Shown: one piece after another, positions 1 to 38,507 of the stretch | How the letters are laid out: every line of letters begins with the position of its first letter | Position numbering within the stretch: position 1 is the stretch's first letter | Notes under the pieces: generated by a model | Databases searched by the model: none | Told to the model about the DNA's origin: nothing | What the model saw: only the letters and a program-made list of their open reading frames with translations | Made by a program: the position numbers and the translations under genes | Assembly: GCF_003967355.1 (NCBI RefSeq) | Contig: NZ_BIFH01000060.1 | Span: 1 to 64,000 of the forward strand | Direction of reading: 5' to 3' | Origin: Embleya hyalina | GTDB lineage: Bacteria; Actinomycetota; Actinomycetes; Streptomycetales; Streptomycetaceae | Length of the DNA: 64,000 bases

Positions 1-1
1 G

Positions 2-660: not shown

Positions 661-742
661 CGTCCGCGGTTCGCCCGAGGCGGGGGCACCGATATCCCGG
701 CGGACGCCGCCCGCGGGCGGGTAGCGTCGCGGAACGACTCGA

Positions 743-916
743 TTGCGCACGGTCGCCCCGGCCGTGGCAGCCGCCGCGTTCCTCCCGGCAGGCTGCTCCG
801 ACCACGACGGGCCCCACGCACCGGACCCGAACGACACGCCCGTCTACCGCTCCAACATCTACTACCACGGCGGCCCCTCCCCCGGATTCGCATGGCACTC
901 CCCGACGCCACGATGA
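743..916 (+). CDS. small putative lipoprotein
   Basis: A TTG-initiated 57-codon frame begins with an alanine-rich hydrophobic segment ending in LPAGC, a good lipobox, followed by an Asp/His-rich polar part with the run DTPVYRSNIYYHGG. If real, it is an exported, lipid-anchored short protein. A related PVYRSDI motif occurs on the minus strand near 56.2 kb, beside the DUF6461 copy there, which supports a small family. The TTG start is a guess because no strong ribosome site is visible, and the short length may reflect truncation. Confidence 0.35.
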   Translation: MRTVAPAVAAAAFLPAGCSDHDGPHAPDPNDTPVYRSNIYYHGGPSPGFAWHSPTPR

Positions 917-1278
917 CCACGGCAATCCCGCGACCGTCGGGCCCGCCACCCGACACGGGACCCGACCGACGCCTCGAGATCGCGTCAGGGCACCGGGGGC
1001 GTCAATCCCCGCACGGCGTGTTCCTCACGGCGCCTCGGCCCGTGCAACGCGCGGGTTCTCCATCGGCGGGGCCGGGGTGGCACACCGCGCGGGCGACCGG
1101 GATCGTCGGGCTCGGCGCGCGGTCCGGGGAGTCCCGGGACGACGATGCCCGGGCCCACGGCCCACCGGACCCGAGGATCGCGGCGGGCCGTCCCCCGCGC
1201 GCCGGGCTCCCGTCCCCTGGGCCGGCCCGGGAACGGGAACACCCTCGGCGACGGGAACGGCGAGGCCGCATCCCGCGG
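917..1278. other. gene-poor stretch
   Basis: All frames here are dense in proline, arginine and glycine, which is typical of non-coding high-GC sequence. I see no gene, RNA or repeat. Confidence 0.4.
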
Positions 1279-1821
1279 TCAGGCCGCGTGCTCGAGGGAC
1301 GACACCGGACGCGCCGCCGCGGTCACCGGCCGGCCGGAGGCCACCATCCGGCTCCGCACGAGGATCGTGGCCACCCGCGTGACGACCTCGGTGAGCGCCA
1401 TCAACACGAACGCCGCCACCCACGCCTGCCCGGAGGTGATGTCGTGCGCGAGGCTGAAGCGCACGACGTGGTCGGCACCACCGTGGTCGACCCACACCTG
1501 GAAGCCCATCCGCGCGCCCATGCCCAGCACCCACAACACCGCCGAGATCGCACCGGCCTTGATCAGCAGATGCCCGCCCGCGGAACGGATCCGGGTGAAG
1601 ACGCCACCGGCCACGCCGAGCGCCGCGCCGATCGCCATTAGCGTGCCGATCAGCACCAGGTCGTTGCCGGCCGTGGGAATCGAGTCGAGGTACTTGAATC
1701 CCACGAACGCCACGATGCCCAGCGGGACGAGGAACGTCTTGCGGTCCAGCCGCCCTTCCCGCAGCTGCCGGAAGACGACGAGGACGAGGACGATGTCGGT
1801 GATCCAGTCGGCGTTTGTCAT
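1279..1821 (-). CDS. small integral membrane protein, unknown function
   Basis: The 180-residue product starts at MTNADWITD; the open frame extends further upstream, but that part is arginine-rich and non-coding in character. Four or five hydrophobic segments are visible: an N-terminal helix ending near VVFRQLREG, FLVPLGIVAFVGFKYL, LIGTLMAIGAALGVAGGVF, KAGAISAVLWVLGMG, and a last one near AWVAAFVLMALTEV. A polar Arg-rich tail follows. It resembles unannotated actinobacterial membrane proteins of 150-200 residues. Nothing points to an enzymatic role. It is separated from its neighbours and is probably monocistronic. Confidence 0.72.
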   Translation of the reverse strand: MTNADWITDIVLVLVVFRQLREGRLDRKTFLVPLGIVAFVGFKYLDSIPTAGNDLVLIGTLMAIGAALGVAGGVFTRIRSAGGHLLIKAGAISAVLWVLGMGARMGFQVWVDHGGADHVVRFSLAHDITSGQAWVAAFVLMALTEVVTRVATILVRSRMVASGRPVTAAARPVSSLEHAA

Positions 1822-2214
1822 GTCCTCACACTGTCGCCGCCGCCTTATCCGCACCTGGACCCACGGGTGGAACAACGGGTGGAGACACGGGTGGACCCCA
1901 CGACCACCCCCGCGCCCCGGCAACCGCTCGGGGCGGTCCGAGGCCACCGAACGCGTCAAGGCGGCCACGACCATCCACACTCCGGGGCTCCCTCCGGGGA
2001 ACGGCGGGCGCTGTCGAACCGGGTGTCGGCGCCCGGGACGGAGACCACCGCCCGCGCCCGCGCCGACGACTTCACCGGGTGCCGCGACACCGATCCCGGC
2101 ACACCGCCGACGCGACCCTCGCCCCGGATCCGGGGCCGGTGCCCGCGCCCACCAACGACGGCATCGGCCGACGCGCCGCAGGCCGGGCGGCCGAACGAAC
2201 GGCACGAGCACGCG
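1822..2214. other. intergenic stretch
   Basis: This lies between the membrane protein start and the DUF2716 stop, both on the minus strand. Frames are Arg/Pro-rich. No gene, terminator with a U-tract, or repeat was recognised. Confidence 0.4.
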
Positions 2215-2769
2215 TCACCGCCGCGGGGCGGGTCGATCGGCGGGTACCCCGTCCCGGCGCAGGGGTCGTCCCAGGATGTGGTGCACGTCCTGTTCGATCT
2301 CGTTCAGGAGTTCCGCGCCGAATACGCAGAAGGTGTGTTCCCAGGGGTGCCCGAAGGTGCCGAATCGCAGGTCCTCCGCGAGGAAGACGTGGTAGTCCCC
2401 GTCGGGGTACGGGCCGAACGGCCAGCCCTCGCGCGAGCGTCCTTCGAGGACGCGCGGCAGGAACATGTCGGTCTCCGGGACGTCCGGGCGCAGCCGGTGG
2501 CAGGTGTGTTGCCAGTCCAGGAGCCACAGCGACTCCCCCGGCCCGCAACGGGTGGCGAGCCCGTCCTGGACGACGTCCACCAGACGGTCGAGATTCCGAT
2601 CGCCGGGGTCGTCGCGCAAGGCGTCCAGGCTCCACGTGATCGACGGCGAGGGCTCCGTGATCCCGGGAAACTCGCACACGCTGGGTCTGAAGGCGAAGCG
2701 GGCGTCGAAACGGTCCCAGACATCGGTGTATTCGGGGCCGGACAGGAGGCGCAGGCGTTCGACCGTCAC
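2215..2769 (-). CDS. DUF2716-like protein
   Basis: This 184-residue cytoplasmic protein carries a motif series I associate with DUF2716: WLLDWQH, then PYPDGDYHVFLAEDLRFGTF followed by a conserved His-Pro-Trp-Glu and CVFGAELL. No signal peptide or membrane segment is present and the length matches small single-domain members. The biochemical function of the family is unknown. It lies in the same cluster of small actinobacterial proteins as the DUF6461 and VGPLRFGMT genes. The start MTVERLRLL is the first plausible start before coding composition begins. Confidence 0.75.
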   Translation of the reverse strand: MTVERLRLLSGPEYTDVWDRFDARFAFRPSVCEFPGITEPSPSITWSLDALRDDPGDRNLDRLVDVVQDGLATRCGPGESLWLLDWQHTCHRLRPDVPETDMFLPRVLEGRSREGWPFGPYPDGDYHVFLAEDLRFGTFGHPWEHTFCVFGAELLNEIEQDVHHILGRPLRRDGVPADRPAPRR

Positions 2770-3095
2770 CCGGCGAACCTATCGTCACACGGCCCGCCCG
2801 CCGACGCCTCTGCGGTCATCCCTCCCCCGCCGGGGCCACACGGGGCACAAGCGCCATCGGCGGGCGCCGGCGTCGGTATCCCGGGACTTCGACGTCCGGG
2901 CGTGTGCCCTTCGCGGGCCGGGTGCCCGGGTGGCGCGGGTCGGGTTCGAGGTGTCGCGGCTGGGGAAGGGCGCGTTCGCCGTGGGGCGGACGCGCCATCA
3001 CCGCGTATGGCGGACGAGTGTCCACGCCCCCCGGGACGGCGGTGCCGCGCGTGTGGGGACCGTCCGTCGGTTCTCGCGCACGGAGCGCACGGCCC
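2770..3095. other. intergenic stretch
   Basis: No frame has coding character and no repeat or hairpin stands out. It separates the DUF2716 gene from the frame-shifted gene ending at 3096. Confidence 0.4.
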
Positions 3096-4614: not shown

Positions 4615-5223
4615 GTGGATGGCGACACTGTCGAGTGGCTGCAGGACTCCTACTTCACCGAGTTCGGGTACTGCGTGACCTTCGCACGCGGGCTGTCGGC
4701 GACGGAGCTGCTGCGGCGCATGGGCTGCGATATGTCGCGCACGGCCCGCAAGAGCGTGATCGACGCGAACCACTGGATCGAGGACGTCGCCGAGGAGTTC
4801 GGCCACGCCGCGGTCGCGGACAGGGAGAGGGTGATCCGGGGCGGCGAGGCCGACGGGTGGGCCTTCGCCGTCGAGGACGCCGGCAGCCGCGGTACACACC
4901 GCGACATCCTCGCCGCAGTGTCGGCCGGCACGGTGGCCCTGAGCACCTTCGAGAACATCAACGCGCTCACGATGTTCCACTACGCGCAGTCCGGGAACGT
5001 GGTGTGCGGGTTCGACCGGCCCCGGGACCGCTGGGGCTCCGACCCGGATCGGCTGGTTCCTCACCTGACCCGCGCGGGCCTGCTGCTCCCCGACGGAACC
5101 CAACCCGACCTCGGCATCGACGCACGGCAACGACTCCTCCACCGCATGATGCACACCGAGTTCGGCACCACACTGCCCCGCCGGGACGTCGAGTTCGGCG
5201 AACTCCTCGCAGCGATGTACTGA
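4615..5223 (+). CDS. DUF6461-family protein
   Basis: The 202-residue product starts at GTG 4615, preceded by a strong site, GAAGGAG, in an AT-richer leader. Family-typical features are the N-terminal WLQDSYFTEFGYCVTFARGL with a following ELLRRMG, a central GWAFAVEDAG (a W in a beta strand), and CGFDRPRDRWGSDPDRLVPH near residue 140. There is no signal or membrane segment, so it is cytoplasmic. The role of the family is unknown; it is often multicopy in actinomycetes. Other members in this window are at 6721, 32752 and 56320, with a fragment at 43151 that matches this gene's 3' third most closely. Confidence 0.82.
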   Translation: MDGDTVEWLQDSYFTEFGYCVTFARGLSATELLRRMGCDMSRTARKSVIDANHWIEDVAEEFGHAAVADRERVIRGGEADGWAFAVEDAGSRGTHRDILAAVSAGTVALSTFENINALTMFHYAQSGNVVCGFDRPRDRWGSDPDRLVPHLTRAGLLLPDGTQPDLGIDARQRLLHRMMHTEFGTTLPRRDVEFGELLAAMY

Positions 5224-6720: not shown

Positions 6721-7506
6721 CTATGTTTCGTCCCGGCGGAGGGGCCGGCCACGCTGCGTCCGGTGGTGCTGCAACGCGTGCTCGACATGCTCGCGGATCA
6801 CTTCCTTGTGGAAGCCGTCACCGTTCGCGTCGGTGAAATCGATCACGACGCCGGTCCCATCCTCGTCGGCGGGTTCCTCCGGGACATGCCCCAGCCGGTA
6901 CGCGGAGGTGTCCAGCAGGTCCTCGGTCAGCCGCACGCCGGTCAGCCGTACGGCCAGTGCCAGGACCGCGGCCTTGCGGTCGTAGGTGTCGGCGTCGGAC
7001 TCCTCGCCCATGTCGAACCCGGCCTCGTGCATCAGCGGCACCAGATCGTCGGGGGTGCTCCCGTGGCGGAGCGTGGGCCAGTCGAAACCGGTTCGCAGTT
7101 CGCCGTCCTCGTACCATGCGAACGTGTGGATGGGCTTCCCCCCGTTGCTCGCGTGCGTGACCGCGCGCGACCCCGCCGACAGGACCTCCAGGAACCGCGG
7201 CCGCATGCCGATGCCCCCGTCGAAGTGCAGGACCAGGGCCCAGTCCCCGCCCTCGCCCGGCACAGCGCACACACCGGCGAGGAAGGACTCGTCCCACTCG
7301 TCGGATCCGGCGAAAAGCTCCTCCTGGCGCTCGAAGAGTTCCACCGCGCCCCGACACCCCCCGCGCGGCTCGGCACCCATCACCCGCAACACCTTCTCGG
7401 GTGGGACACCCCGCACCAGCATCAGGCAGTACCCGACCTCGATCCCCTGGGGGAACACGAACGAGGAACGTATCCAGCCGTAGTCGGCCGCGGTCGCCGC
7501 ACTCAT
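6721..7506 (-). CDS. DUF6461-family protein, copy A of a duplicated locus
   Basis: This 261-residue protein begins ATG SAATAADYGWIRSSF behind a GGGAGG site. It has the family signatures VGYCLMLVRGVPPEKVLRVM, WALVLHFDGGIGMRPRF and EDGELRTGFDWPTLRHGS. Compared with the 202-residue members it has a longer C-terminus ending in a His/Arg-rich tail. The gene at 56320-57102 is a close paralog over its whole length, and the similarity continues upstream of the start, so a larger segment was duplicated. The ATGA overlap with the small frame at 7503-7712 suggests translational coupling. Cytoplasmic; function unknown. Confidence 0.82.
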   Translation of the reverse strand: MSAATAADYGWIRSSFVFPQGIEVGYCLMLVRGVPPEKVLRVMGAEPRGGCRGAVELFERQEELFAGSDEWDESFLAGVCAVPGEGGDWALVLHFDGGIGMRPRFLEVLSAGSRAVTHASNGGKPIHTFAWYEDGELRTGFDWPTLRHGSTPDDLVPLMHEAGFDMGEESDADTYDRKAAVLALAVRLTGVRLTEDLLDTSAYRLGHVPEEPADEDGTGVVIDFTDANGDGFHKEVIREHVEHALQHHRTQRGRPLRRDET

Positions 7507-7712
7507 GCGCACACCCTCCCAACGACCACCGACACCAGGGAGCCGACTCCCCCGAGAACGGCCCGCCCCCGCCCCACGACAGGCACGTCCCGCCGGGCGA
7601 CATCGGGCGCGACTTCCGGGCCCCCGCGGTCGCGAAACAACGTCGAACACGGCATCACCCACGCCGGCGGGTACGGCACCGGGGGTGCGGACGGGGCGAA
7701 GTCACCGACCAC
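7503..7712 (-). CDS. small upstream frame overlapping the DUF6461 start
   Basis: This 69-codon frame ends in VLGGVGSLVSVVVGRVCA, and its TGA overlaps the ATG of the DUF6461 gene (ATGA). The same ending, GGVGSLGSVVAGKVCA, precedes the paralogous DUF6461 gene near 57.1 kb, although the stop has changed to TGG there. Conservation of position and sequence suggests a real small partner gene or a translated leader, but similarity could also simply follow from duplication of the DNA. The N-terminal half is Pro-rich and unconvincing. Confidence 0.3.
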   Translation of the reverse strand: MVGDFAPSAPPVPYPPAWVMPCSTLFRDRGGPEVAPDVARRDVPVVGRGRAVLGGVGSLVSVVVGRVCA

Positions 7713-7877
7713 ACCGCTCCGTCGGACTCGGGGACGAGCATCCTTCGGATCCCGTCCTTCTCCAGACTTCGCGATGTCTCATGAGACATGCCCACCACCC
7801 ATCGGTTGGTGGGCAAGTGCCCGCGAAGAAGAGCCGATGGTTGCGGCTCAATGGTCGAACCCTGGAGGGGGTTCCCC

Positions 7878-8274
7878 GTGCGCATGCGCAACAAGCTTGC
7901 CCTTGCCGCCGCCGGAGTCACGGCCGCCGGCGCCGTGTTCGTCGGTGTCGCCGTGGCAGCCGACTCGACCGACACCGTCAACCCCCCACGCCCAGGTGAC
8001 GGTCTCGGTCGACAGGACCGGCACCGTCACCCGCAAGGCCGGCTCTGTCGAATCGGTCGGCAAGGACGGAGCCGGACGCTACTGCGTCACGCTGAAGAAG
8101 ACCGTCGACGTGGCTCGCTCCGTGCCGATCGCGACGCTGGACAGCGCGGCGGACTGGAAGAGCGGGATCTACGTCGGGCGCACCGGCGGAGTCTGTCCGG
8201 CGAACTCCGTTCGCGTGACCACCGGCACCGACGGCGTCGCGCAGGACCAGCCCTTCACCCTCATCGTCCCCTGA
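7878..8274 (+). pseudogene. small secreted protein with a 1-nt insertion in a C run
   Basis: GTG at 7878, seven bases after GGAGGGG, starts MRMRNKLALAAAGVTAAGAV, a clear signal peptide ending at VAVAADS. At the six C residues 7982-7987 the frame breaks. With five C it continues HAQVTVSVDRTGTVTRKAG through GAGRYCVTLKKTVDVARSV and GGVCPANSVRVTTG to a stop at 8274, giving about 131 residues. Two Cys in the mature part could form a disulfide. It resembles small secreted actinomycete proteins of unknown role. A strong hairpin follows the stop. Broken as written; phase variation or a sequencing error are alternatives to decay. Confidence 0.68.
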
Positions 8275-8280
8275 CGGCTC

Positions 8281-8314
8281 CCGTACCGGGCGCCGTGCCG
8301 TGCGCCCGGTACGG
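8281..8314. terminator. hairpin terminator
   Basis: A perfect 13-bp stem (CCGTACCGGGCGC at 8281-8293 with its complement at 8302-8314) encloses an 8-nt loop and is followed by TTTCGG. It starts six bases after the stop of the secreted-protein gene on the plus strand and also lies downstream of the four-gene minus-strand operon, so it could serve both directions. Confidence 0.65.
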
Positions 8315-8561
8315 TTTCGGCCGCCCCTGGCGGGCCCGGGTGGCCGTGGGGACAAGCGCGGCGCGGCCGCCCGACGGGTCGGGTTCTCACACCTCACCCT
8401 GCCTGTACGGGCGAGCCCCGGCGGCCGGAAGGCGTGCCGGGGCTCGGATCGGCGGAAGGTCAGCCGACGCGGTCGGCCGGGGCGTCGGCGTACGTACCGT
8501 GCTTGAGGATCGGCCCGTCGTAGCCGGTCTTGTCGTCCCGGTGGGCGGCGGGGCCGCTCCG

Positions 8562-10199
8562 TCAGGCGGGCGAGGCGGACTTCTCCGGGGTCTCCTCGGG
8601 TTCGGAGTCCGGCGGGTCCACGTCGCCCGCGACCGAGGACGGCGTGATGCCACCCTTGCCGAACGGCACCCAGACGAGCCAGGCGGCCCTGAATTCGGGT
8701 CCGCTGTCGCCGCCCTCCATCCCGAAGTAGACGCTGCACGAGGCGCCCTTGCGAATCGGCAACACCGCCACGTTGGCGGCCGTACGACCGTCGATACGCA
8801 TTGCGGAGGCTCTGACGTTGGTCCCGTTTCCGGAGAGTTTGACGATGGAGTTCCGGGAGTTGCCGGTGGTGTGGACCTCGCCGATCGCCAGGCCCGCCGT
8901 CGGCGCGGTGAACGCCAGGGTCCGGCCGAACGTCAGCGGGAAGACCTGCGCGGGGCCGACGATGTCCATGGTGGACACGGTCGCGGCGAATGGTCCCCCG
9001 ACCGTGAGGCCGTCGGCGCCCGCCACGATCTTCGCCGCGGACAACTGCTTGCCCGTGGCCACGGTCACGTTGCCGTTGAGCAGGCTGGTGCCGGACACCG
9101 TGAGGTTGCCGGCGATCGTGACGTCGTTGCCCGGCAACACGTTCGTGTTGCTGTTGATCGTCAAGGCTACGGCGGACGGTCCTCGCAGGTCCCTGATCCG
9201 CACGATCGAACCGCCTTCGGTGACGGAGACGTCGTCCTTCGCCGTTGTGGTGCCCTCCACCACCAAAGGCCCCTTGACGGTGGTCGTCCGGTCCGACGAC
9301 GACAGGTTGAGGTGTCCGCCGACGTCGATCGTCGGATTCTGCCCCAGCCCCATCATGGTGCGCGCATACAGCGTCCTGTCCTTGTCCACCGTGACGTCGC
9401 CCTTGGCGGTGGTCGTGCCGTGGACGACGAGATTCCCGACCTCCAGGTCCGGCTTGACGACCGTCACCTGGGCGGCCAGGATCCGCACCACCTGGTCCGG
9501 GGCCTGACCCACGGTGCCCCGCAGGTAGAACGTCGTGTCGGACGTGACGTTCGTGATCTTCCGGGTGGACACGTTGGTGACGGGCAGGCACGTGCGCCCG
9601 TACAGCAGTTCATAGGCCGCGTTCGCCGAGCGCTCCCACGTCAGGGTGACGTCGCCACCGTTGTCGATCACCAAGGGGTCACACATGAGGTTCCGCATGT
9701 AGAAGCCGGGCGGAAACTTGCCCACGCTGAACACCAGTTCACGGTTGCGGAAGGCACTGTTGCCCGTGCGCGAGCGCTCGGTCACCGTCACCGGACAACT
9801 GCCGACCTTCCGGCTCACCGGAAGCTCCGAGATCCGGATGGTGATCGAGGTGTCCGGGCCGATCGTCTCGTACTCCGCCACCGGCGTGAACACGAACTCC
9901 TCCGTGGACGAGTTCAGTGCCACCGACCACCCGGACAGGCTGATGGACGCCACCGCCCTGCTCAGATCGAGCGCGAGGTCGGGGGCGGCCGTGCCGGCCG
10001 GGATCTTCACCTTGATCGACGCCACGTCGGCCGCCGTGCCACTGCGCCGCGACGCCACGATGATCAGTTCGCAGGTCTCCGGCGGCATCTGCGGGTTCTC
10101 CGGTGATGCCTCCACCGGGTCCGGGGCGGTCGTCAGGTCGTACGACAGGAGCGGTTCGTCTGCGGACACGACGGTGAAACTCTGTGTGACCAGACCCAT
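8562..10199 (-). CDS. tail-fibre-like beta-repeat protein, last gene of four-gene operon
   Basis: This 545-residue protein has no signal peptide. Residues 1-230 look like beta-sandwich domains; near 200 the run GDVTLTWERSANAAYELLYG followed by TNVTSDTTFYLRG resembles Ig-like domains of surface proteins. From about 250 to 430 there are short repeats of valine-glycine-threonine type (LVVHGTTTAKGDVTVDK, LVVEGTTTAKDDVSV, NLTVSGTSLLNGNVTVATGK) as in phage tail fibres and beta-helices. The C-terminal domain, with CSVYFGMEGGD, ends in an acidic tail. GGGAG precedes the ATG. It starts 6 bases after the stop of the 1152-residue gene, so it is translationally linked. A binding or structural role is inference. 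Confidence 0.82.
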   Translation of the reverse strand: MGLVTQSFTVVSADEPLLSYDLTTAPDPVEASPENPQMPPETCELIIVASRRSGTAADVASIKVKIPAGTAAPDLALDLSRAVASISLSGWSVALNSSTEEFVFTPVAEYETIGPDTSITIRISELPVSRKVGSCPVTVTERSRTGNSAFRNRELVFSVGKFPPGFYMRNLMCDPLVIDNGGDVTLTWERSANAAYELLYGRTCLPVTNVSTRKITNVTSDTTFYLRGTVGQAPDQVVRILAAQVTVVKPDLEVGNLVVHGTTTAKGDVTVDKDRTLYARTMMGLGQNPTIDVGGHLNLSSSDRTTTVKGPLVVEGTTTAKDDVSVTEGGSIVRIRDLRGPSAVALTINSNTNVLPGNDVTIAGNLTVSGTSLLNGNVTVATGKQLSAAKIVAGADGLTVGGPFAATVSTMDIVGPAQVFPLTFGRTLAFTAPTAGLAIGEVHTTGNSRNSIVKLSGNGTNVRASAMRIDGRTAANVAVLPIRKGASCSVYFGMEGGDSGPEFRAAWLVWVPFGKGGITPSSVAGDVDPPDSEPEETPEKSASPA

Positions 10200-10205
10200 G
10201 TCTCG

Positions 10206-13200
10206 TCAGCTCCCTTCGTTGGAACGGGTGTGCGCCGCCGCGTTGTCCAGGGTCAGGAACCCGGACCTGATCTCCGGGTCGGCGAGCGGCAGGTCGGTCG
10301 CGTCCTGTGGCTGGATGGCGAGCTTCTCCCACACTCCGCGGCGGTTCTCGGTCCAGGACCACTCGCCCAGCACGGTCGCGGGCACGGGCATCAGGACGGT
10401 TTCCTGCGGTTCCCGGGACGGGCCGTACAGGTTCACGCTTGCGGCGAGGAGGTCGCCGGTGCGGAAGTTCACCGACATACGTGCGAGGGCGGCGTCGGTG
10501 AACTCCTGCGGGACGAGGACCTTCTTGGTCGCGAGAATGTCCGTGGTGGCGTGGGCGGCGGCGCGCGGGTCGACCAGGAGGGTGAGCACGGTCGTGTTGC
10601 GGTCGCCGAAGTTCAGCCACAGCGCGGGCACGTCACCGATGGGGCGCAGGTAGTCGCCGGCGCCGGCCACCGGGTCGACGACGGTGTCGAAGTGCTCGTA
10701 ATCGCCGTCGGTGACGTAGCCGACGACGCCGTCGTCGGTCTGGTCCGCCTCGCCCATGCGTACCACCCAGGGGTAGGAGGGCAGTTCGCGTACGGTCTCC
10801 TCGAACAGCATCCGCCAGCTGACGTCGGAGGCCGGCGGGCCGTGGGCCTCCATCTCCAGTCGGGTCCGGACCAGGGCCAGCGGGCGACCCAGCAGAAAGC
10901 CCAGGCCGGGATCGGCGGGGCCTTCCGGGTCGATGGTGTGCAGGGCCTTGTCCACGGTGGCCCGGAAGGCGTCGAACGCCTCGGGCCCCCTGGTCTTGAC
11001 GGGCTCGAGAAGGTCGTAGGCGTGTGCCGAGACCGTCCGGAGTTGTTCGAAGTCGGTGATGTTCGATCCGGGGAGCACGGACCAGGAGACCTCCCTGGTC
11101 GACCGGGAGTCGAGCGTCACGCGCAGTTCGCCGAGAACCAGTCCGGTCGGTTCGTACACCACCAGCGACTTGTCGAGCCGGTTGTGCACCAGCCACGCGC
11201 AGACGGGGTTGTTTCCGGGGGCGAGTTCGACGTCCTCGTCGCCGTCCGCGGACAGGAAGTCGAAGCGCAGCCGGGCCGGTTGGAGCAGTCTGGGGCCGAG
11301 TTCGATCAGTCGGTCGGCGTCCTGTTCCTGGGCGAAATACTCGGGTTCCATCGTGCGGACGATCTCCGGCCGGAAGTGCAGCGCATCGCCGATCAGGTCG
11401 ACGGCCCGGCCGAACCGGTCCACGACCGACAGGTCGAGGAAGGCCATCTGTCCGGCCCGCAGTTCCTGGAACCGCGACGGGGGCCACGGATCCCAATCGT
11501 CGGCCGGTGCGCCGCCGGGGTCGGGCGGCGCGAAGTCGCCGTCGCCCAGCAGGGCGGCGACGTCCGGAGGCGGTTGAATGGCGCCGGCCGGCTGTCGTTG
11601 CGCGATCGCCGCCCCGAAGCCGTCGAGGACCTGCGACAGGACGTTGGTCTCCTTGGCGTCGGATCGTAGCCTGCGCAGGGTTTCGGCCGGGATCAGGCCG
11701 TCGCGGCGGCGTGCGTGAATGGCGATCTCGCCTTCCAGGACGTGCCCGGCGGTGGGGGCGAGCATCTGTCGGCCGGAGGCGGTGATGGTGGTGATCTCCT
11801 GCGGGGGGCCTTCCTCGGGCCAGCCCTTCCAGCGGTAGCGGGAGCGTTCGATGAACTCCCAGTGGTCGCCGCCCTCGTCGTGGAAGGGCAGCGGGAAGTA
11901 TTCCGCCTTCCACATGAGGAACAGCGGCTGCCAGGGCATCTCCCACTCACTGGTGCCGAAGGTGGGCATCGTGCCGATGACGTTGGTGTAGTTGCCGGTC
12001 TTCAGCGCCTTGTCGAGGATGAAGAACTCGGTGGCGAGGGCCGGGAAGCAGGGCGGGAGGTTGGTGAAGGTCACCTTCGCGACCAGCGGGGCGACCTGAC
12101 TGCCCGTCACTCCGGATGCCGCGGTGACCAGGCGATCCGGCGTGCGGCAGGGCAGGGATTCCTTACGGACCAGTGGGGCGTGCAGGTTGGCGCCTTCGAG
12201 GGCGAGGACCGGATCGGCGCTGTATTCGAAGTCCTGGCGGGGCGCGCGGATCAGGGTTCGGGCCGAACGGGCCTTGTACTGCGGGTACTTGCGTTCGATG
12301 TCGGCGGCGAGTTGGTCGGCGGTCCTGCCGGTCGGCAGCCGGGAGTCGCGGGCGGTATCCGCGGAGAGCCGATCGACCTCCGCCTTGGCCTGTGCCAGTG
12401 CGTCCTCGATGCCTTCGTGGAAGATGTCCGGCTGGTCCTCGCGTTGGGTGAGCCACCACAGCTGGTAGAGGCGTTCACGGGCGGCGCGGAGTTCGCGTTC
12501 GCGCCCGTCCGCCCGGGCCTGGAGTTCGTTGAGTTGCCGGAGCAGGGTGTTCTCCTCCTCGTCCCGAACGAGGAAGGTCCGTCCGGCGGGTGCGGAGGGG
12601 GCGTCGGGTTCGATGGCGTCGCGGGCGCCGATGAACCAGTGGTAGCCGCCGGGGACGGGGCCGAAGCCGATGTCGTGGGCGCGGCGGTCGGTGAGGATGT
12701 CCGCTTCGGGGAGGTCCCGTTCGGCCAGCGCCTCGGTTCCGCCGAGCAGGAACGCCCGGAAGAGTTCGGCCTCTTCGACGGAGAGCACACCCTCGGCGGA
12801 CGTCCCCGCCTCCCCCACGGCCTCCATCACGCTGTTGGCGACGGTCGCGGTGACGTCGCGGCGGTGCGGGCACTTCGACCGCGGTACTCCGCCGTCGATC
12901 TGCCAGTCGAGGCCGAGGACGGTGCCGGAGTAGACGGACCTGCGGATACCGCTGCCGGATCCGGGCGGCGCCGTCCAGCCGAGATCGTCGAGCAGCTTCG
13001 AGAGGTCCTCGGTTCCGGCGAGGATGTCGCTGTCGGGCTGGGCGTACCAGCCGGCGACGAAGTAGCCGAGCCGTTCGACGGGTTCGACGCCGGTCAGTGT
13101 GTCGTGCATGGAGAAGACGTTCGTGTTGTACGGCTGGAAGACGGAGAAGGTCGGCAGCCCGGGGCCGATCGCCGTGAGGAACGGGGTGTGCCGGTCGTCG

Positions 13201-13664
13201 GGTTCGCGCCAGGCTTCGGTCAGATCGTGGCACTTGCCGATCTTTGTGGCTTCGGGGTGCTCGGTGTCCGGGGTCTGGAAGGAGACCGTGCCGTTGGTGG
13301 GGTCGAGGTAGTCGCTCTCGACGATCCACGCCCTGACGTTGGAGGTGCCGTCCTCGTGCCGCACCACCAGCCAGCGGTTGGGGACGAGCGGGAAGTCGCC
13401 TACGCCCTCGTCCTCGTCGTGCCGGCCGCGGGTGAGGGCGGCGGGCAGTTCCCACTGGAGGTAGACGCCGAGCCGGTCTTCGTCTCCGCGCCACTGCTCC
13501 AGGCCCATGAAAGGAGCGGGTTCGGGCGGGTTGCCCTGGGCGACACCTCGGAAATTCGTGTTCCAGCGCTGGATGACGTGATCGTCGCCGGTGTCGCGGG
13601 TCTGCCGGTTGACGGCGAGTGCCGCCACCTCGACGGGAACGACCAGGGTGGTGTCCGCGGACAT
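10206..13664 (-). CDS. very large hypothetical protein, four-gene operon
   Basis: This 1152-residue protein lacks signal and membrane segments. Near residue 75 it has YLQWELPAALTRG, then FPLVPNRWLVVRHED and AWIVESDYLDP, a series I recall from memory in other very large uncharacterised bacterial proteins. Residues about 375-450 form a charged coiled coil (LNELQARADGRERELRAARE). The second half is Trp- and acid-rich with motifs such as WQPLFLMWKAEYFPLPFHDE and VCAWLVHNRLDKSLVVYEPT. The start ATG has an AAAGGAGG site in the 14-base gap after the 734-residue gene. Probably a structural or scaffold component; no catalytic motif was seen. Confidence 0.85.
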   Translation of the reverse strand: MSADTTLVVPVEVAALAVNRQTRDTGDDHVIQRWNTNFRGVAQGNPPEPAPFMGLEQWRGDEDRLGVYLQWELPAALTRGRHDEDEGVGDFPLVPNRWLVVRHEDGTSNVRAWIVESDYLDPTNGTVSFQTPDTEHPEATKIGKCHDLTEAWREPDDRHTPFLTAIGPGLPTFSVFQPYNTNVFSMHDTLTGVEPVERLGYFVAGWYAQPDSDILAGTEDLSKLLDDLGWTAPPGSGSGIRRSVYSGTVLGLDWQIDGGVPRSKCPHRRDVTATVANSVMEAVGEAGTSAEGVLSVEEAELFRAFLLGGTEALAERDLPEADILTDRRAHDIGFGPVPGGYHWFIGARDAIEPDAPSAPAGRTFLVRDEEENTLLRQLNELQARADGRERELRAARERLYQLWWLTQREDQPDIFHEGIEDALAQAKAEVDRLSADTARDSRLPTGRTADQLAADIERKYPQYKARSARTLIRAPRQDFEYSADPVLALEGANLHAPLVRKESLPCRTPDRLVTAASGVTGSQVAPLVAKVTFTNLPPCFPALATEFFILDKALKTGNYTNVIGTMPTFGTSEWEMPWQPLFLMWKAEYFPLPFHDEGGDHWEFIERSRYRWKGWPEEGPPQEITTITASGRQMLAPTAGHVLEGEIAIHARRRDGLIPAETLRRLRSDAKETNVLSQVLDGFGAAIAQRQPAGAIQPPPDVAALLGDGDFAPPDPGGAPADDWDPWPPSRFQELRAGQMAFLDLSVVDRFGRAVDLIGDALHFRPEIVRTMEPEYFAQEQDADRLIELGPRLLQPARLRFDFLSADGDEDVELAPGNNPVCAWLVHNRLDKSLVVYEPTGLVLGELRVTLDSRSTREVSWSVLPGSNITDFEQLRTVSAHAYDLLEPVKTRGPEAFDAFRATVDKALHTIDPEGPADPGLGFLLGRPLALVRTRLEMEAHGPPASDVSWRMLFEETVRELPSYPWVVRMGEADQTDDGVVGYVTDGDYEHFDTVVDPVAGAGDYLRPIGDVPALWLNFGDRNTTVLTLLVDPRAAAHATTDILATKKVLVPQEFTDAALARMSVNFRTGDLLAASVNLYGPSREPQETVLMPVPATVLGEWSWTENRRGVWEKLAIQPQDATDLPLADPEIRSGFLTLDNAAAHTRSNEGS

Positions 13665-13677
13665 CTCGGGCCTCCTT

Positions 13678-15882
13678 TCACAGGCGGGTGAAGGACTGGA
13701 CCTGCGGTGCCTGGATCATCTGCAGGGCGAACTGGGCCGAGGTCAGCCGGACGCCGCCGTGCGCGGTGTCGAGACCGTCGAGCAGGGCCGTGCCGGAGCC
13801 GCCGATGTTGAGCACCCCCGTTTCCCGGTCGCGAAGGTATGCGCCGAAGTCGGCATCCGCCGGGAACTCGCCCATCGGGTATCCGATCCGGGGGCCGTCG
13901 ATCTCGCGGAGTTCGATGGTGCCGACGTTGCCGACGCCGAAGCAGATGCCGCGCGGGGGTTCGGCGATCTCGAAGCGGTCGATCACCCGCGGGTACAGCA
14001 CGAGTCGAACGTCGGTGCCGTAGTCGGCCGTTCGCAGCGGCTCGACGTCGACCTCGGCGCGCAGCCCGGTGAAGATGGTGGTCGGCCAGCCGGGGATCAG
14101 CGACGACCGCACGAGCACGCCGCACTCCGGGACCGGCCCGCCGTCCACGGCGAGGCTGTTGAGATCGGCGTCGAGGGCGTGGCCGACGCCGACGCTCAGG
14201 GCTCCGTCGACGGCGGCGCGGATCCACTCCGGATCGACGTGGAAGAAGCGGATGCTCTCCTGGGGCAGCATCCGGGTGTCCGGGACGAGGTTGTCGAAGG
14301 TCGCGATCTCCAGCAGGCGCAGCCGATCGAGCCAGGCCCGTACGCCCTCGAACTCGTCGCCGGCCGCTTCGCGGACGAGGGACCGCACGGAGGTGTCGGC
14401 CAGCAGTGTCCCGATGTCGCCGGTCGTGCGCCGGGCCCGCGTCGTCGTGCGACGGCGACCGGCGCGCATCGCGGCGGGGGCTTCGCGGACGGCGCGGCCG
14501 AGCCGGGCACCGTCGTCGTCCAGGAGCATGCGGTCGAAGGATTCGATCGCGAGCGGTGCGGTGAGCTGCCGGGCCGAGACGGCACGCCCGACCAGACGCG
14601 GATGGGAGGCGAGGCGGCGTACCGCGAACCGGGCGGCTTTGCGGAACTCCAGCAGGGCCTTCCGGTAGTCGGCGTCGGCGAGGGCGAGTGTGCGTCCGGT
14701 GGTGAACGCGGCGGCGTACGAGGTGTCGAAGACGCCGTACTTCTCCAGGTAGACGAGTGCTTCGCCGGAGGAGTCCAGGCGTACCCGGCCCTCGCCGGGG
14801 TCGGGCAGCGGCTGGGGTTTGAGGGCGGTGAAGGGTCCGCGGTGGAAGGCGATCGTGCGTTCGCCGGTGGGCAGGCGCTGCGGGAGGGTGGTGGCGCCGC
14901 CCGCGACGCGGTCGAGCGCTTCGCGCTGGGGCTCCGTCACATTCGCGGGCTCGGTGACGGGGACGCGCAGGCGCAGGTCCCGGCGTGGCGTGACGCCGTC
15001 GGTCGTGGCGAGTCGTTGCACCATGTCACCGAAGCCGGTGCCGTCGTCGGGTCGGGTCTCGAAGGTCCAGGAGGTGAGGGAGACCAGCCGCACACCTTCC
15101 TCGGCGGCGGGTTCGGTGAGGGCGTCGTCGTGGCCTTCGAGGCTGACGAGGTGGCAGACGTGCAGGCCGCCTCGGGCGTCGGGGAATCGGTTGGCGACGA
15201 CGACGGCGTTGAGCTGGTCGATGTCGGGTTCCGGGCTGCTACCGGCGCGTGTGGCGTCGGGTTTGCCGCCCTCCCGGACATGGGCGAGGTAGGCCATTTC
15301 GGTCGGCAGCGGCTTGACGCGGTCGAACAGGGCGGCGGGGACGTGGATGCTGACGCAGTTCTCGTCGCACTCGTCGGGGCGCAGGCTTTTCGGGTCGATG
15401 TCCGGCGGGCGGCCGGGGCCGTGTTCCCCGGCGAGCAGTTTGCGTACCGTGTCGACGGTGACGGCGCCGACCGCCTCCAGGTCTTCGTCGAGTTCGCCGG
15501 GGCGGAAGACGAACAGGGCCATCCACGGGATGCTCTCGTCGTGTTCGCCGAGGTCGCCGAGCGGCCGGGCCCACGGGAGTTCGGGGGTGTCGAGGTTGAT
15601 GTGCGGCAGGACCTCGCTGTACGTGCCGACGGCGTCGGGCACCGGGTAGCGGGCGTTGACGGCGGTGGGGGCGATGGCGAAGCGGGGTTGGATGACGTCG
15701 AAGGGCTGGGGTGTGCCGTCGAGCGGCCGGTCGGCGCCGTCGGTGTCGCGGAGCAGTTGCCCGTTGTGGATCTCGTAGCGGCCCGCGTGGAGCGAGGGGA
15801 TGCGGTGGTCGAAGAAGCGGGTGCGGTGGGCGGTGGCCGGGCGCGGTGGGTCGGAAGCCCCGGCCTGGGGTGCGGTGGTCAC
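13678..15882 (-). CDS. large hypothetical protein, four-gene operon
   Basis: This 734-residue soluble protein starts at GTG behind AGGAGG, 22 bases after the DUF6603-like gene. Visible features are an N-terminal RFFDHRIPSLHAGRYEI, a region LPWARPLGDLGEHDESIPWM with FVFRPGELDED, a basic segment near residue 470 (RAGRRRTTTRARR), and a C-terminal beta-rich domain with DVRLVLYPRVIDRFEIAEPP and a glycine-rich end. There is no recognised catalytic or secretion motif. Its strict position between two very large proteins indicates it acts with them, perhaps in a complex. The family was not recognised. Confidence 0.84.
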   Translation of the reverse strand: MTTAPQAGASDPPRPATAHRTRFFDHRIPSLHAGRYEIHNGQLLRDTDGADRPLDGTPQPFDVIQPRFAIAPTAVNARYPVPDAVGTYSEVLPHINLDTPELPWARPLGDLGEHDESIPWMALFVFRPGELDEDLEAVGAVTVDTVRKLLAGEHGPGRPPDIDPKSLRPDECDENCVSIHVPAALFDRVKPLPTEMAYLAHVREGGKPDATRAGSSPEPDIDQLNAVVVANRFPDARGGLHVCHLVSLEGHDDALTEPAAEEGVRLVSLTSWTFETRPDDGTGFGDMVQRLATTDGVTPRRDLRLRVPVTEPANVTEPQREALDRVAGGATTLPQRLPTGERTIAFHRGPFTALKPQPLPDPGEGRVRLDSSGEALVYLEKYGVFDTSYAAAFTTGRTLALADADYRKALLEFRKAARFAVRRLASHPRLVGRAVSARQLTAPLAIESFDRMLLDDDGARLGRAVREAPAAMRAGRRRTTTRARRTTGDIGTLLADTSVRSLVREAAGDEFEGVRAWLDRLRLLEIATFDNLVPDTRMLPQESIRFFHVDPEWIRAAVDGALSVGVGHALDADLNSLAVDGGPVPECGVLVRSSLIPGWPTTIFTGLRAEVDVEPLRTADYGTDVRLVLYPRVIDRFEIAEPPRGICFGVGNVGTIELREIDGPRIGYPMGEFPADADFGAYLRDRETGVLNIGGSGTALLDGLDTAHGGVRLTSAQFALQMIQAPQVQSFTRL

Positions 15883-15904
15883 GGTGGTCCTCCTGAAGAG
15901 CGGC

Positions 15905-18469
15905 TCAGGCCGGGATGAGCATCGGGTCGGCGGTGAAGGCGGTGCCGGCGGCGGACGCGTAGGCGGTCAGGTCGGTATCGACGGGGCCGCGGTCGAAGAG
16001 GCCGAGGTTCCCGGCGGCGTCCACGAGGGCGTTGCGGCGGTCCTTGACGGCGGGGGTGTTCACCCCGGTGGCGAGGATGTCGACCACGCTCCGGGAGGGC
16101 CGCCGCGGTACCGGGCCGACGGGGGTGGCGGCGGGATCGAGGGGCTGGATTCCGGGCGGGGTGACCGGGTCGAAGGAGATGCCCTCCTCGTCGATGAAGC
16201 CGGTGTCGGTGCCGTTGTCGACCGGTGGTGAGGCGAGTTCGACGCCGATGACCTGTTCGGGGATGAGTTCGCCGCCGTCGCCGCTGTCTCCCCAGCGGGC
16301 ACGTGGGACCGGTCCGCGGAGGATGCCGCGTCCCCACTCCATGAGGTCGTAGGTGTCGTCGCCGTTGAAGGTGACCCACACGCGCAGTTCGCTCTGCCGG
16401 TCCTTCAGCGCCATGGGCAGGATGTCGATCGGTGGGCCGCCGACGACGTCTTCGGTTCCCGTCCTGCTGAGGTAGACCTTGCTGACCGGTACCTGGGTGT
16501 CGGCGGTGAATCGGAAGCCGGCGTTGTCCACGATCCACGGTTTGCGTCCGCTGCGGGTGGTGCCTGCGGGGGTTTCGCCGATGAGGCCGGCGCCGGCGGT
16601 GGAGCGGACCATGTGCTGGGGTACGGGCAGGGTGCCCTGGAAGCCGAACCAGCCCAGCGGTGGCGGGGTGTCGTCGCGCTTTCGGCCGAAGCCGATGGTG
16701 AAGGAGATGAACCACAGGTGGACGGTGGCCTCGCCGCCGACCGGCGGCCCCCAGGCTCGTACGCTGACGCCGACCTCGATGGAGATCCTGATCCGGACGA
16801 ACCAGATCGGGATCGTGGCGGACACTCCGACGCGGACGCTGATACCGACATCGAAGTAGAACGGCTTCCATTGCAGGAAGGCGTCGATCCTGGCGATGAG
16901 CCAGGCACGCAACATGCCTGACTCGAAGACGAGTTCCAGGGCGCCGCCGGCCATCAGGGACTTGGGGGTCAGTCCGGCGTAGGCGCTGCCGGAGACGGTG
17001 ACGGTGGAGCCCAGGGCCCAGGTGAGCGCGGCCTCGGCGCCCCGGGGATAGCGGACGGGGAGCTCGCGCCCGGCGGGGATGCGGCCGAGGATGAACGCGA
17101 AGTCGCCGGCGTTGGGATTGGCGCCGAACCACACCTTGAGCCCGATGCCGCCGCGGACCTTGCAGTCCGGGTCGATGACGAAGGTGTTCTCGGTGAGGCC
17201 GACGCCGAGGCTGAGTTCGCCGGAGGAGGGGCGGATGGTGGCCTCGACGCCGATTTCCACCCGGGCGATCTTCTTGGTGCTCTTGGTGGGCAGTTCCGCG
17301 CCGCCCGCGCCCAGGAGGCTGATGACGAGGTCGTCGCCGAACTGGACGATGGCCATGGCGCGGCCCTTGATGAGTTCGAAGACGCTGAAGGCGAAGCCGG
17401 CGGCGATCCAGATGTTGCCTTCGGAGGGTTGGACCCAGGCGAGGCTCCCGCTGCCGACGAGGGTGGCGAGGATGTCGAGGGGATCGGTGGCCTCCTCGTC
17501 GTGGCCGATCGAGCCGGGGTCGTCGAGGGCCTGGAGGAACGGGAAGGTCGCGAGCGCCTCGGCGGCGGGGACGCGGACCTTGCTGTTCCAGCCGAATCCG
17601 GCCGAGACACCGTTGAGTTCGAGGGGCGGGTAGCCGAGCAGCGGGTCACCGCTGAGCGCGGCGTACACGAACATCGAGGGGTCGGTGCCGCTGTCGGGCA
17701 CGACGTACGCGCCCATCGCGGTGCCGGTGTACGTTCCGACGCCGACGATGAGCAGGCCGGCGATGGTGGTCTTGTACGGCGGGGTGGCGGGAAGCGCGGT
17801 CAGCGCGCCGACGAGACGGAACGTGCGGCGTTCGAGGTTGATGCTGATGCCGTTGGCGCCGGGTGGCGGTTCGGGCGGGGACCAACCGCGGACCATCGGC
17901 GAGTCGAGCACGGTGACGCCCTTGCGGCGCACGGCCGCGGCCCGGGGGACGACGATGCCGCGCGAGGTCACCAACGCCCGCGGTTCGCGTCGTCGTTCCT
18001 CGGCGGTGCGGAGCCGCCGGGGCGGCAGCGGTCGGCCGAGCCCGTCGCGGCGCTCCGGATCGGTGTCGGGCTCGCACCGCGGGGGCGCGGCCAACGGCAG
18101 GACCCGATCACCCGTCACCAACCAGGCGCCGGGCCGCGGCCCGTCACCGCTCGGCACTCCGTCGACCAGAACCAGGCCGACGGTGCCACCCAGGTCCACG
18201 AACGCCCTGACACCGGAAACGTGTTCGCCGTCCCGGCCGAAGTCGACCCGTACCGGCAGGGGTCCGTCGGCGGCCGTGGTGACCGCCCGACCGGCCGCGC
18301 GCAACTCCTTCGCATCGCACACGACGCCTTCGATGTGCAGCACGCCCCCGGGGAAGACGAGAGCCGCGTCCGCGCCGAGGAGTTCCGGCGCGACGTCGAG
18401 AACTCCCCCGGGCCGTGTGTCGTCGAACAGCTTCCGCAAGGTCTGGACCTGTATCGCCACAGCCGTCAC
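15905..18469 (-). CDS. DUF6603-like large beta-rich protein, first gene of operon
   Basis: The 854-residue product starts at GTG (MTAVAIQVQTLRKLFDDTRP) behind a modest AAGGTGGG site. After an N-terminal domain (about 1-150, with LVFPGGVLHIEGVVCDAKEL) and an Arg-rich linker, residues about 230-620 form a long beta-rich region with alternating hydrophobic strands. Examples are LQWKPFYFDVGISVRVGVS, FVRIRISIEVGVSVRAWGPP and EATVHLWFISFTIGFG, the pattern I associate with DUF6603. The C-terminus (about 700-854) is Pro/Asp-rich. No signal or membrane helix is evident. The DUF6603 name is from memory; function is unknown. As first gene, its upstream region 18470-18640 should hold the operon promoter. 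Confidence 0.8.
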   Translation of the reverse strand: MTAVAIQVQTLRKLFDDTRPGGVLDVAPELLGADAALVFPGGVLHIEGVVCDAKELRAAGRAVTTAADGPLPVRVDFGRDGEHVSGVRAFVDLGGTVGLVLVDGVPSGDGPRPGAWLVTGDRVLPLAAPPRCEPDTDPERRDGLGRPLPPRRLRTAEERRREPRALVTSRGIVVPRAAAVRRKGVTVLDSPMVRGWSPPEPPPGANGISINLERRTFRLVGALTALPATPPYKTTIAGLLIVGVGTYTGTAMGAYVVPDSGTDPSMFVYAALSGDPLLGYPPLELNGVSAGFGWNSKVRVPAAEALATFPFLQALDDPGSIGHDEEATDPLDILATLVGSGSLAWVQPSEGNIWIAAGFAFSVFELIKGRAMAIVQFGDDLVISLLGAGGAELPTKSTKKIARVEIGVEATIRPSSGELSLGVGLTENTFVIDPDCKVRGGIGLKVWFGANPNAGDFAFILGRIPAGRELPVRYPRGAEAALTWALGSTVTVSGSAYAGLTPKSLMAGGALELVFESGMLRAWLIARIDAFLQWKPFYFDVGISVRVGVSATIPIWFVRIRISIEVGVSVRAWGPPVGGEATVHLWFISFTIGFGRKRDDTPPPLGWFGFQGTLPVPQHMVRSTAGAGLIGETPAGTTRSGRKPWIVDNAGFRFTADTQVPVSKVYLSRTGTEDVVGGPPIDILPMALKDRQSELRVWVTFNGDDTYDLMEWGRGILRGPVPRARWGDSGDGGELIPEQVIGVELASPPVDNGTDTGFIDEEGISFDPVTPPGIQPLDPAATPVGPVPRRPSRSVVDILATGVNTPAVKDRRNALVDAAGNLGLFDRGPVDTDLTAYASAAGTAFTADPMLIPA

Positions 18470-18640
18470 CCACCTTGAAATCGCGACGAAGGGTTCGGCG
18501 CCGGAAGCAGTACGACAGGACTGCGACAGTCACTCCCCGGCGTCGCTCAACAACTTGACGTCACGGACAAGAAGTAAGCAATCACACAAATGATGACTGG
18601 CCCGATTGCATCATGTAATGACGTGTTCTCATCCATCGAG
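18470..18640 (-). promoter_or_regulatory. likely promoter region of the four-gene operon
   Basis: The region upstream of the first operon gene contains the most AT-rich stretch nearby (about 18560-18620), including an inverted ATGATG/CATCAT at 18590-18595 and 18609-18614. I cannot assign -35 and -10 boxes with confidence, and no regulator gene is adjacent. Confidence 0.25.
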
Positions 18641-18923
18641 CTGGAAGGCTCCCGGCTCCTCTGGAACGCCCGTGCGACATCCGCGCGGCCGCCGCCGGGA
18701 ACGACACGAAGCCCACGGCGAGGCGCGGCCCTTCGCCGACCCGATCCCGTCCGTCGACGACTGCGCCGCGCGCGGCATCGGCGACGGATGTGGCACGGGC
18801 GGCGTGGGCGAGCATGCTCGTGTGCCGGCACGCCGGCACGTCCCGCCCGCTGCCGTCAGTCCTTGATAGTGAAGCGACCCGGCGTCATGCCGGCGGCGAA
18901 TCACAGCTCGCCGTCCGAGTCGA

Positions 18924-19565
18924 TCAGGGACGATTCTTGTTCCCGCCCTGCCACAGCTCGTGGCAGCCGCCCTTGTCGACGAACCAGACGGGGTCGGCCC
19001 TGCTGCTCACCGCTCTGACCCATCGTCGGATGAATCGATCCACCTGTCCTTGTTGCGGTCGGATTCGACGCGAAGACGTCCACCCCAGCAGTCGCCTTCG
19101 TCCCAGCTGTCGATGCACTTGACCTACACGACCGAGTCCGCCTCGGCCGAGAGCAGGTCTCCTTCGGGCGAGAAGGCGACGACGGCATCGCATCGAAGCG
19201 CGCCGCGGCATGCGCGGCGTCGTCCGGCAGGCCGGCCCTGATTCCGCACAGGCTGCCCGGGAGTTCCACCAGCTCGCCGCCGATGTGGGTGATCAGTACA
19301 GGGTCGCCGTGCTCGGCCATGATGCGCGCCCCCTCCGGGTCGGGCCGATCGTCGCCCACCAGTGTGCGCCGCCACCTCGAGGCGCCGACAGTGGCGCACG
19401 GCGGCGCGTGCGGGGGCGTGACGGTGGTAACGGACACCAGCCGCAGGTCGGAGGCGGTCCAACCGTCCGGATCGATGGCGAACAACCCCGAGGCGGCGCT
19501 ATCACGGACGAGGCCTGGTCCCGCTCCTCGCGGTCCCGGCCGTCGAATCCATTCCCGAGGCATCC
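18924..19565 (-). pseudogene. degenerate gene, paralog of 20764-21397
   Basis: Joining minus-strand frames gives a coherent protein: RDREERDQA, then LVRDSAASGLFAIDPDGWTA and SDLRLVSVTT, LITHIGGELVELPGSLCG, RFDAVVAFSPEGDLLSAEAD, CIDSWDEGDCWGGRLRVESD, and finally DPVWFVDKGGCHELWQGG with a TGA at 18924. It is interrupted by frame changes near 19515, 19195 and 18995 and by an in-frame TAG near 19124. At the first break, GGCCTC replaces the GGCCCT found in the paralog, a single lost C. The number of lesions indicates a true pseudogene. The GLFAIDPDGWT motif is shared with 20764-21397. Original function unknown. Confidence 0.6.
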
Positions 19566-19738
19566 CCGAAAGGGCGAATCCCGGCCCGGCGGCGCATGAG
19601 GCGGACCGGGGGCGGAGAAGTCACACCCCGGATGAGTGATCGCGATACGGCCTCGCCGCAGAGATGTCGGCTGCCGGTGGACGAGGTGCCGGCGGCGCCG
19701 CGCGGCCGGGGCTCCCGACGAGAGGATGACGGTACTCC

Positions 19739-20233
19739 ATGAGGTTTCGTGTGTTCGGCAGGGCGTCGTCGGTCGCCCTGACCATCCTGGCCGCGGTGGC
19801 GAGCGGGGTCCCGGCCGCCACCGCGGCACCCGCGTCCGCGGGCACGTCGGCGCGGGTTGCGTCGTCCGTCCAGGAGGGGCGCGACCCCATCGGCTTCTAC
19901 GTGCAGCGAGGGTATTCACGCGGGTCGTTCCAGGGCGAGGTCACGTGGACGGGCGACGGCTCCTACGCGATCGGCGGGTACCTGAGCGTGAACTGCGAGG
20001 CGACCTCGCGTACGACGGCGTGGATCCAGCACGGCGGGGCGAGCCAGTCCTGGAAGGACTCCGAAGAGGTCGGCTGCAGCGGCGTGGGCACCTCCGAGTC
20101 GAAGGCCATCCACGTCACCGGCAGACTGACCAGGCACGAGAAGCTGCACATCCGGCTGGGCACCTGGCAGTCCAGCTTCCCCGCCGGCACCTGGGAGCAC
20201 AGCGCCAAGTACGAGGCCGACGTCTTCTCCTGA
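19739..20233 (+). CDS. secreted protein, unknown function
   Basis: This 164-residue protein has a textbook signal peptide (MRFRVFGRASSVALTILAAV, cleavage likely after ATAAPASAG). The mature domain is beta-rich with repeated Ser/Trp/Gly strands: GSFQGEVTWTGDGSYAIGG, then VNCEATSRTTAWIQHGG, VGCSG and IRLGTWQSSFPAGTWEHSA. Two cysteines probably form a disulfide. The start is an ATG about seven bases after GAGAGGATG. It resembles small extracellular beta-sandwich proteins of streptomycetes; no enzyme motif was seen. No operon partner is evident. Confidence 0.8.
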   Translation: MRFRVFGRASSVALTILAAVASGVPAATAAPASAGTSARVASSVQEGRDPIGFYVQRGYSRGSFQGEVTWTGDGSYAIGGYLSVNCEATSRTTAWIQHGGASQSWKDSEEVGCSGVGTSESKAIHVTGRLTRHEKLHIRLGTWQSSFPAGTWEHSAKYEADVFS

Positions 20234-38493: not shown

Positions 38494-38507
38494 GGCGCGC
38501 GGCCTCC

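Follow-up and report, generated by a model that had tools for sequence, protein, structure and literature searches.

A conserved operon of large soluble proteins, with a fibre-like and variable fourth member, in Embleya hyalina and its relatives

What do four very large adjacent genes of Embleya hyalina encode, and do their products belong together? The genes, here called A, B, C and D, lie in the window, i.e. the whole stretch of 64,000 nucleotides that was analysed, on contig C60 of a genome assembly of 12.05 Mb in 78 contigs (table 1). The initial annotation described four minus-strand genes with gaps of 22, 13 and 6 bases, and open reading frames were found at the positions and with the sizes that it gave. 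Their composition was of the coding type (third-position GC 0.89–0.91, second-position GC 0.48–0.53). A good ribosome site had been claimed for every gene, which holds for two of the four: those of B (aggagg) and C (aaggagg) are clear, but that of D (agggag) is weaker, as is that of A, where aggtgg abuts the GTG start. Since aggtgg touches the annotated GTG, translation of A perhaps begins at the next in-frame GTG. A scan of positions 7600–19800, of a kind that suits a GC-rich actinomycete poorly, detected no sigma-70-like promoter and no terminator-like site. By a composition heuristic, the nearest gene on the A side lies at 1270 bases and on the opposite strand, and the nearest on the D side at 900 bases and on the same strand.

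Table 1. Positions in the window of the four genes and of the parts of D.
Feature	Position	Strand	Description
Gene A	15905..18469	(-)	854 aa; DUF6603 protein, common to both operon classes; 49-row alignment
Gene B	13678..15882	(-)	734 aa; no known family; N-terminal part common with class II B
Gene C	10206..13664	(-)	1152 aa; no known family; class I operon marker
Gene D	8562..10199	(-)	545 aa; fibre-like: anchor, stalk, tip
D anchor	9450..10199	(-)	about residues 1–250; two beta-sandwich domains, the second Ig/FN3-like
D stalk	8949..9449	(-)	about residues 251–417; short-strand repeats, VxGTTTAKGDV type
D tip	8610..8948	(-)	about residues 418–530; variable beta-rich end, TAPTxG...PIRKG...WVPFG

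The first gene had been likened to DUF6603, and A is indeed a member of this family by profile, with PF20248 matching residues 203–657 (E 3.7e-104; 349.5 bits against a gathering cut-off of 27). The function of DUF6603 is unknown, and relatives also occur in fungi. Above cut-off, Pfam returned DUF6603 only for A and no family for B, C or D, and NCBIfam gave no match for any of the four; no Tc toxin family was among the matches. For C, a motif series shared with large orphan proteins of other phyla had been noted. This series is real and extends to at least one other phylum, since W71, P74, P95–L99, R102, W113, S117, D118 and L120 are invariant in an 11-row alignment that includes the window and one Paenibacillus sequence.

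Profile searches against solved structures gave nothing usable for A, B, C or whole D: A and D had no match, and the best E values were 1.3 (B) and 1.7 (C). An AlphaFold2 model of A, made with five sequences, had a mean pLDDT of 27 and was too poor for any inference. DUF6603 was absent by name from 5.39 million open-licence papers, and nothing on the operon itself was found in this literature, which does not prove novelty.

Profiles built on the four window proteins were run against 64 loci, and 59 of these hold C (a number that still includes L051, the same locus as L006, and L057, a close relative of the window). A, B and C occur in this order at 56 of the 59 C-bearing loci (the exceptions are L018, L092 and L093), and D follows C at 52. 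The order test used positions only, and the shared strand was read from separate profile results. The Paenibacillus sonchi copy (L018) has no A match and a C that is split over two frames, and is probably decaying. No D match was obtained at L017, L018, L023, L025, L030, L093 and L094; L025 is cut by a contig end, and in the genome of L030 (G246) D was later found beside C, with two matches. The annotation had presented the genes as a joint unit, in agreement with the order kept here.

This set is found in streptomycetes and also in Paenibacillus, there without D. A second copy lies in the same genome on contig C41; its A, B and C are roughly 32–39% identical to those of the window, and its D is 24% identical. 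Scanning genome contigs with C yielded four loci (L005–L008), all with A-B-C-D, and C was present in eight plasmid records (four Streptomyces, two Embleya and two Paenibacillus). Plasmid pSCL4 of S. clavuligerus ATCC 27064 bears a relative of the operon (L019). The survey of other phyla was based on the plasmid records and this one scan of genome contigs. Within the family, C was present in at least 40 of 249 genomes, a lower bound, as two candidates were scored per genome. A further full A-B-C-D copy (L117) was seen in genome G440, outside this count; the same genome also holds a D gene near what appears by eye to be a fragment of a gene for a metallo-beta-lactamase (MBL)-fold protein (L118).

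A second operon class was recognised, in which DUF6603 and a B-like protein stand beside different giant proteins, C2 and D2, wherever the locus is uncut. These class II DUF6603 loci comprise L024, L026–L029 and plasmids of Rhizobium, three haloarchaea, two Streptomyces and one Nocardia; plasmid records matching class II B also came from Gemmatirosa, Natrinema, Paraburkholderia and others. C2 carries the motif LLPVRLETRF and D2 the motif DPLWLLxRQWQxGEFxGEDAG. The B proteins of the two classes align over 200 columns (hhalign probability 96, E 2.9e-9). No profile match was found between C and either C2 or D2, nor between D and D2, and D2 is not claimed as the counterpart of D. Searches of solved structures with class II B and C2 profiles gave nothing usable.

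The association of A with B was also seen in genomes sampled across the phylum. DUF6603 occurred in nine of 296 Actinomycetota genomes. The class II B profile, which reaches window B at E 1.8e-7, found seven of these nine and zero others of the 296, and the remaining two (G204 and G246) carry class I B; every DUF6603 genome of the sample (9/9) therefore has B. The reverse association is less certain, as B was sought outside A-bearing genomes through the class II profile, which missed the two class I genomes; a Fisher value for A and B supposes that B is absent elsewhere and is given no weight here. C was present in four of the 296 genomes, all four among the nine with DUF6603.

C and D were also linked, though not strictly. 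The D-anchor profile matched 61 of the 249 family genomes, i.e. 38 of the 40 with C and 23 others, of which six matched weakly and in the FN3-like part only. With these six excluded, 38 genomes had both C and D, two had C only and 17 had D only (Fisher p 4e-29). At 11 places away from known C loci, D was alone or paired with another D in the fetched stretch; eight of these (L112–L116 and L119–L121) are in genomes without detected C, and three (L122–L124) in genomes with C elsewhere. None of the 11 stretches contains A, B or C, and L122 is a tandem D pair. D is thus not strictly tied to the core, since 17 of the 249 genomes have D and no detected C, and seven of 59 C loci gave no D match in the order test. 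The initial annotation had held that homologues occurring independently of this gene order would speak against a joint system; within the searched set A, B and C stayed together, and D did so only in part.

The D protein falls into three parts (table 1). Its AlphaFold2 model, built with six sequences, had a mean pLDDT of 47.6, was fair only in the anchor (75–88 for residues 171–230) and was of low confidence in the stalk. For the stalk, profile matches among 72 D proteins were to bactofilin (five), Fil_haemagg (five) and FapA (three), and the adenovirus fibre-shaft model matched one of the 72 weakly (E 0.0025). A tip pattern defined by our own regular expression, TDG...VPVRKG...WxPxG, ends 41 of 91 D rows. 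Named binding modules were seen in one of the 72 proteins each, a PLAT domain (E 8e-16) and an F5/8 type C (discoidin) domain (E 7e-10). Tips also matched two designed proteins, 8bl6 and 8bl3 (E 3.4e-5), a likeness that is read only as beta-sandwich-like; the tips may also resemble C1q/TNF-type heads. Short D proteins of 162–180 aa, with the first part of the anchor only, lie beside full D genes at L070, L071, L072, L084, L089 and L092.

D genes are frequently arranged in arrays. Without L051 and L057, which were left out of the D statistics and the large alignments, 82 D genes were counted in 50 loci, with one, two, three, four or five D genes at 29, 14, 4, 2 and 1 loci, respectively; the array of five is L077. 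The anchor was taken as the first 255 residues and the tip as the last 110, and tips with a global alignment score of 15 or less were called unrelated; fragments below 230 aa (same-locus pairs) or 331 aa (cross-locus pairs) were omitted. Anchor identity was 60–98% in 30 of 38 same-locus pairs; the tips were unrelated in 26 of the 30 and related in four. The other eight pairs, with anchors 27–38% identical and related ends in four, are older duplicates. Over all 38 pairs, mean identity was 73% for the anchor and 29% for the tip, and the extremes were 98% against 24% (L077) and 97% against 23% (L052). Anchor DNA was 83–98% identical within three arrays.

We read the same-locus pattern as probable duplication of the anchor with replacement of the tip. 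Between loci, three of 2737 pairs had tips that were 57–76% identical on anchors of 32–35%, two of the three sharing a tip type, which we read as likely transfer of tips between lineages. Clean tip replacement is common, not universal, since eight of the 38 pairs are old duplicates and eight have related tips. The annotation had proposed that the last gene could be a binding tip, and D, with conserved anchors and variable ends, does behave like an exchangeable one. At the level of sequence, then, A-B-C form a conserved gene unit, and in D a conserved anchor is followed by a repeat-bearing stalk and by a tip that varies strongly.

The explanation that we prefer, at somewhat under even chances, is that A, B, C and D make up one machine, an A-B-C assembly that displays exchangeable binding fibres. 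A, B and C would build a large soluble particle or scaffold, to which the Ig/FN3-like anchor would attach the D fibres, and the ligands of the tips would be glycans or proteins of varying targets. The cell would keep a repertoire of specificities and, much like phages with their tail fibres, would refresh it by recombining at the anchor. No secretion route was seen, and the lack of a recognisable signal peptide on A–D suggests that release is by lysis of the cell or by an unconventional route. Hydrolases encoded just upstream of A at some loci may be cargo or effectors; as none was called beside the window operon, this copy would be a bare binding form. Besides the kept gene order and the tip pattern, the binding modules of single D proteins and the matches of some D relatives to phage families speak for this explanation. 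Against it stand the loose tie of D to the core, the same-locus pairs that show no clean tip replacement, the lack of a phage or viral-contig match for the window tip, and the low frequency of PLAT and discoidin tips (one of 72 each) and of MBL-fold companions (11 of 64 loci).

A wider reading is put forward more tentatively, and we hold it to be possible but doubtful. DUF6603 plus B would be the core of a machine class common to bacteria and haloarchaea, combined with either of two sets of giant partners and acting as a non-contractile extracellular particle for targeting or delivery, not as a known phage part. Class I would carry arrays of tip-swapped fibres, and the hydrolases that accompany some lineages of both classes (MBL-fold, PhoD-like, M64 or S8 peptidase) might be cargo.

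If A-B-C do assemble, the core would have no recognised relatives beyond DUF6603 and would bear renewable binding fibres. A machine of this type would be carried by about one in six of the sampled family genomes (at least 40 of 249) and would be a further kind next to Tc toxins, injection systems and the tails of phages. The fixed partners would make DUF6603 function testable, and the D arrays would provide a natural record of binding-tip exchange.

The companion genes bear on another explanation, an intracellular immune or conflict system in which A-B-C form a scaffold, D tips sense invader proteins and MBL-fold-type companions act as effectors. MBL-fold relatives were found in 11 of the 64 loci (weak in L078, partial in L080 and L023), and in nine of the 11 the MBL gene lies directly before a long A of 1413–1810 residues. 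In the second copy on C41, an MBL-fold gene (Lactamase_B, E 4.1e-10) lies 20 bases upstream of A, and its product resembles LmuA and RTasMBL (PADLOC E 2e-10 and 5e-7), which speaks for an immune role. The patchy spread and the plasmid homes are also consistent with this role, as is the lack of a membrane helix in A–D, which had been claimed before and agrees with the maximal Kyte-Doolittle means over 19 residues (0.99–1.58). However, none of A–D matched a PADLOC family of known anti-phage defence at E up to 0.01, Pfam gave no NTPase, nuclease or TIR family within them, no effector or hydrolase companion was called next to the window operon, and the tip types that can be named are binding modules. 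We regard an immune system as unlikely.

Other companions were more varied. Class II neighbours include a PhoD-like phosphatase (L097), an M64 peptidase (L026) and a subtilase (L103); a hemopexin-repeat protein precedes one class I set (L076), and several other upstream neighbours had no Pfam family. The one haloarchaeal class II D2 that was scanned contains a Lamin Tail Domain (E 1.7e-29). Lamin Tail Domain proteins are described as occurring with MBL-fold hydrolases (PMC5118699), and the domain in this D2 and the MBL companion at some class I loci are features in common with those systems. The match of window D to the Lamin Tail Domain (E 0.032, 15 bits) was below the gathering cut-off of 34.3.

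Another unlikely explanation is that the proteins cover hyphae or spores as a structural coat or an adhesive layer, with A-B-C as a sheet or fibre and D providing stickiness. The beta-rich, repeat-bearing nature of D would suit such a layer, as would the BGTF surface domain annotated on two large class II haloarchaeal proteins. The anchor model aligned with Ig/FN3 and pilin/adhesin domains, but many of these and unrelated rows lay within about 1 Z of each other (first row 3ml6_B, Z 10.0), and no family is claimed for the anchor because of these ties. The best match of the anchor profile among solved structures was a chitinase A1 FN3-type chain (E 0.07). The anchor also shares its fold with domains of the Aureispira grappling hook protein GhpA (VIA-align Z 9.2–9.6, rmsd 2.4–2.9 over 77–82 residues), but this is a very common beta-sandwich and the comparison is by fold only. 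A coat is disfavoured by the absence of a membrane helix and of any obvious signal sequence in A–D, as read from the sequence, and by a patchy distribution and a turnover of tips that exceed what a coat would need.

The fibres of phage tails and extracellular contractile injection systems have a conserved anchor, a stalk and an exchangeable tip, with tandem alternatives, and D is built and arranged in the same manner. The operon might be what is left of a phage tail or injection system whose core proteins are unrecognisable, which we consider very unlikely. Some D relatives do match phage fibre or baseplate families in PHROGs (phrog_20516 in five of 72; phrog_4549, tail fiber, in two, best E 0.001; a baseplate-hub family in one, E 2.1e-4). 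Sheath-family genes occur elsewhere in the host genome, with PF04984 matches at C25:80011, C21:207078 and C53:20712 and one below cut-off at C41:89898, and these loci may be injection systems. On a Paenibacillus polymyxa plasmid (L017), positions 1–3000 contain a baseplate-V gene with a GH-E nuclease, and an ankyrin gene; this region is some 9 kb upstream of A-B-C, perhaps by chance. An unverified phage-labelled record from human faeces (L102, MT835531.1), which may be bacterial DNA, holds a class II B-like protein with 34% identity.

Against such an origin, window A, B and D matched no PHROG family (D searched to E 1), and C gave a single stray match at E 0.18. Relatives of C were absent from 50,697 phage records and from pattern scans of viral contigs; when C, its alignment, class II B and the D tip were used to scan viral contigs, no relative could be confirmed, and the window tip had no match in phage records or viral contigs. 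The annotation had stated that sheath, tube, baseplate and AAA genes are lacking. For the sheath, the gene that marks a contractile injection system cluster, this stands for the whole of contig C60, where PF04984 had no match; for the other components it extends to A–D, in which Pfam matched none of them, and to ten other window genes that were scanned. Membership in phage or injection-system fibre repertoires is not supported.

Polymorphic toxin systems, as described in PMC3482391, combine a constant N-terminal part with a recombining, variable C-terminal part. D likewise has a constant N-terminal and a variable C-terminal part, but its variable part resembles a binding tip.

That the four are separate enzymes in an accidental neighbourhood is barely credible, even though D is also found away from A-C, because the A-B-C order is kept in 56 of 59 loci and A and B are associated in two operon classes.

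The same-strand gene 900 bases beyond D is a DUF6461 gene, and four DUF6461 copies are present in the 64 kb (4615–5223, 6721–7662, 32752–33396 and 56320–57108; Pfam E 4e-26 to 2e-78), a local expansion of this family. A 1287-aa ALF-repeat protein (39253–43116) and a trypsin/FG-GAP protein (36265–38511) are encoded close together further along the window.
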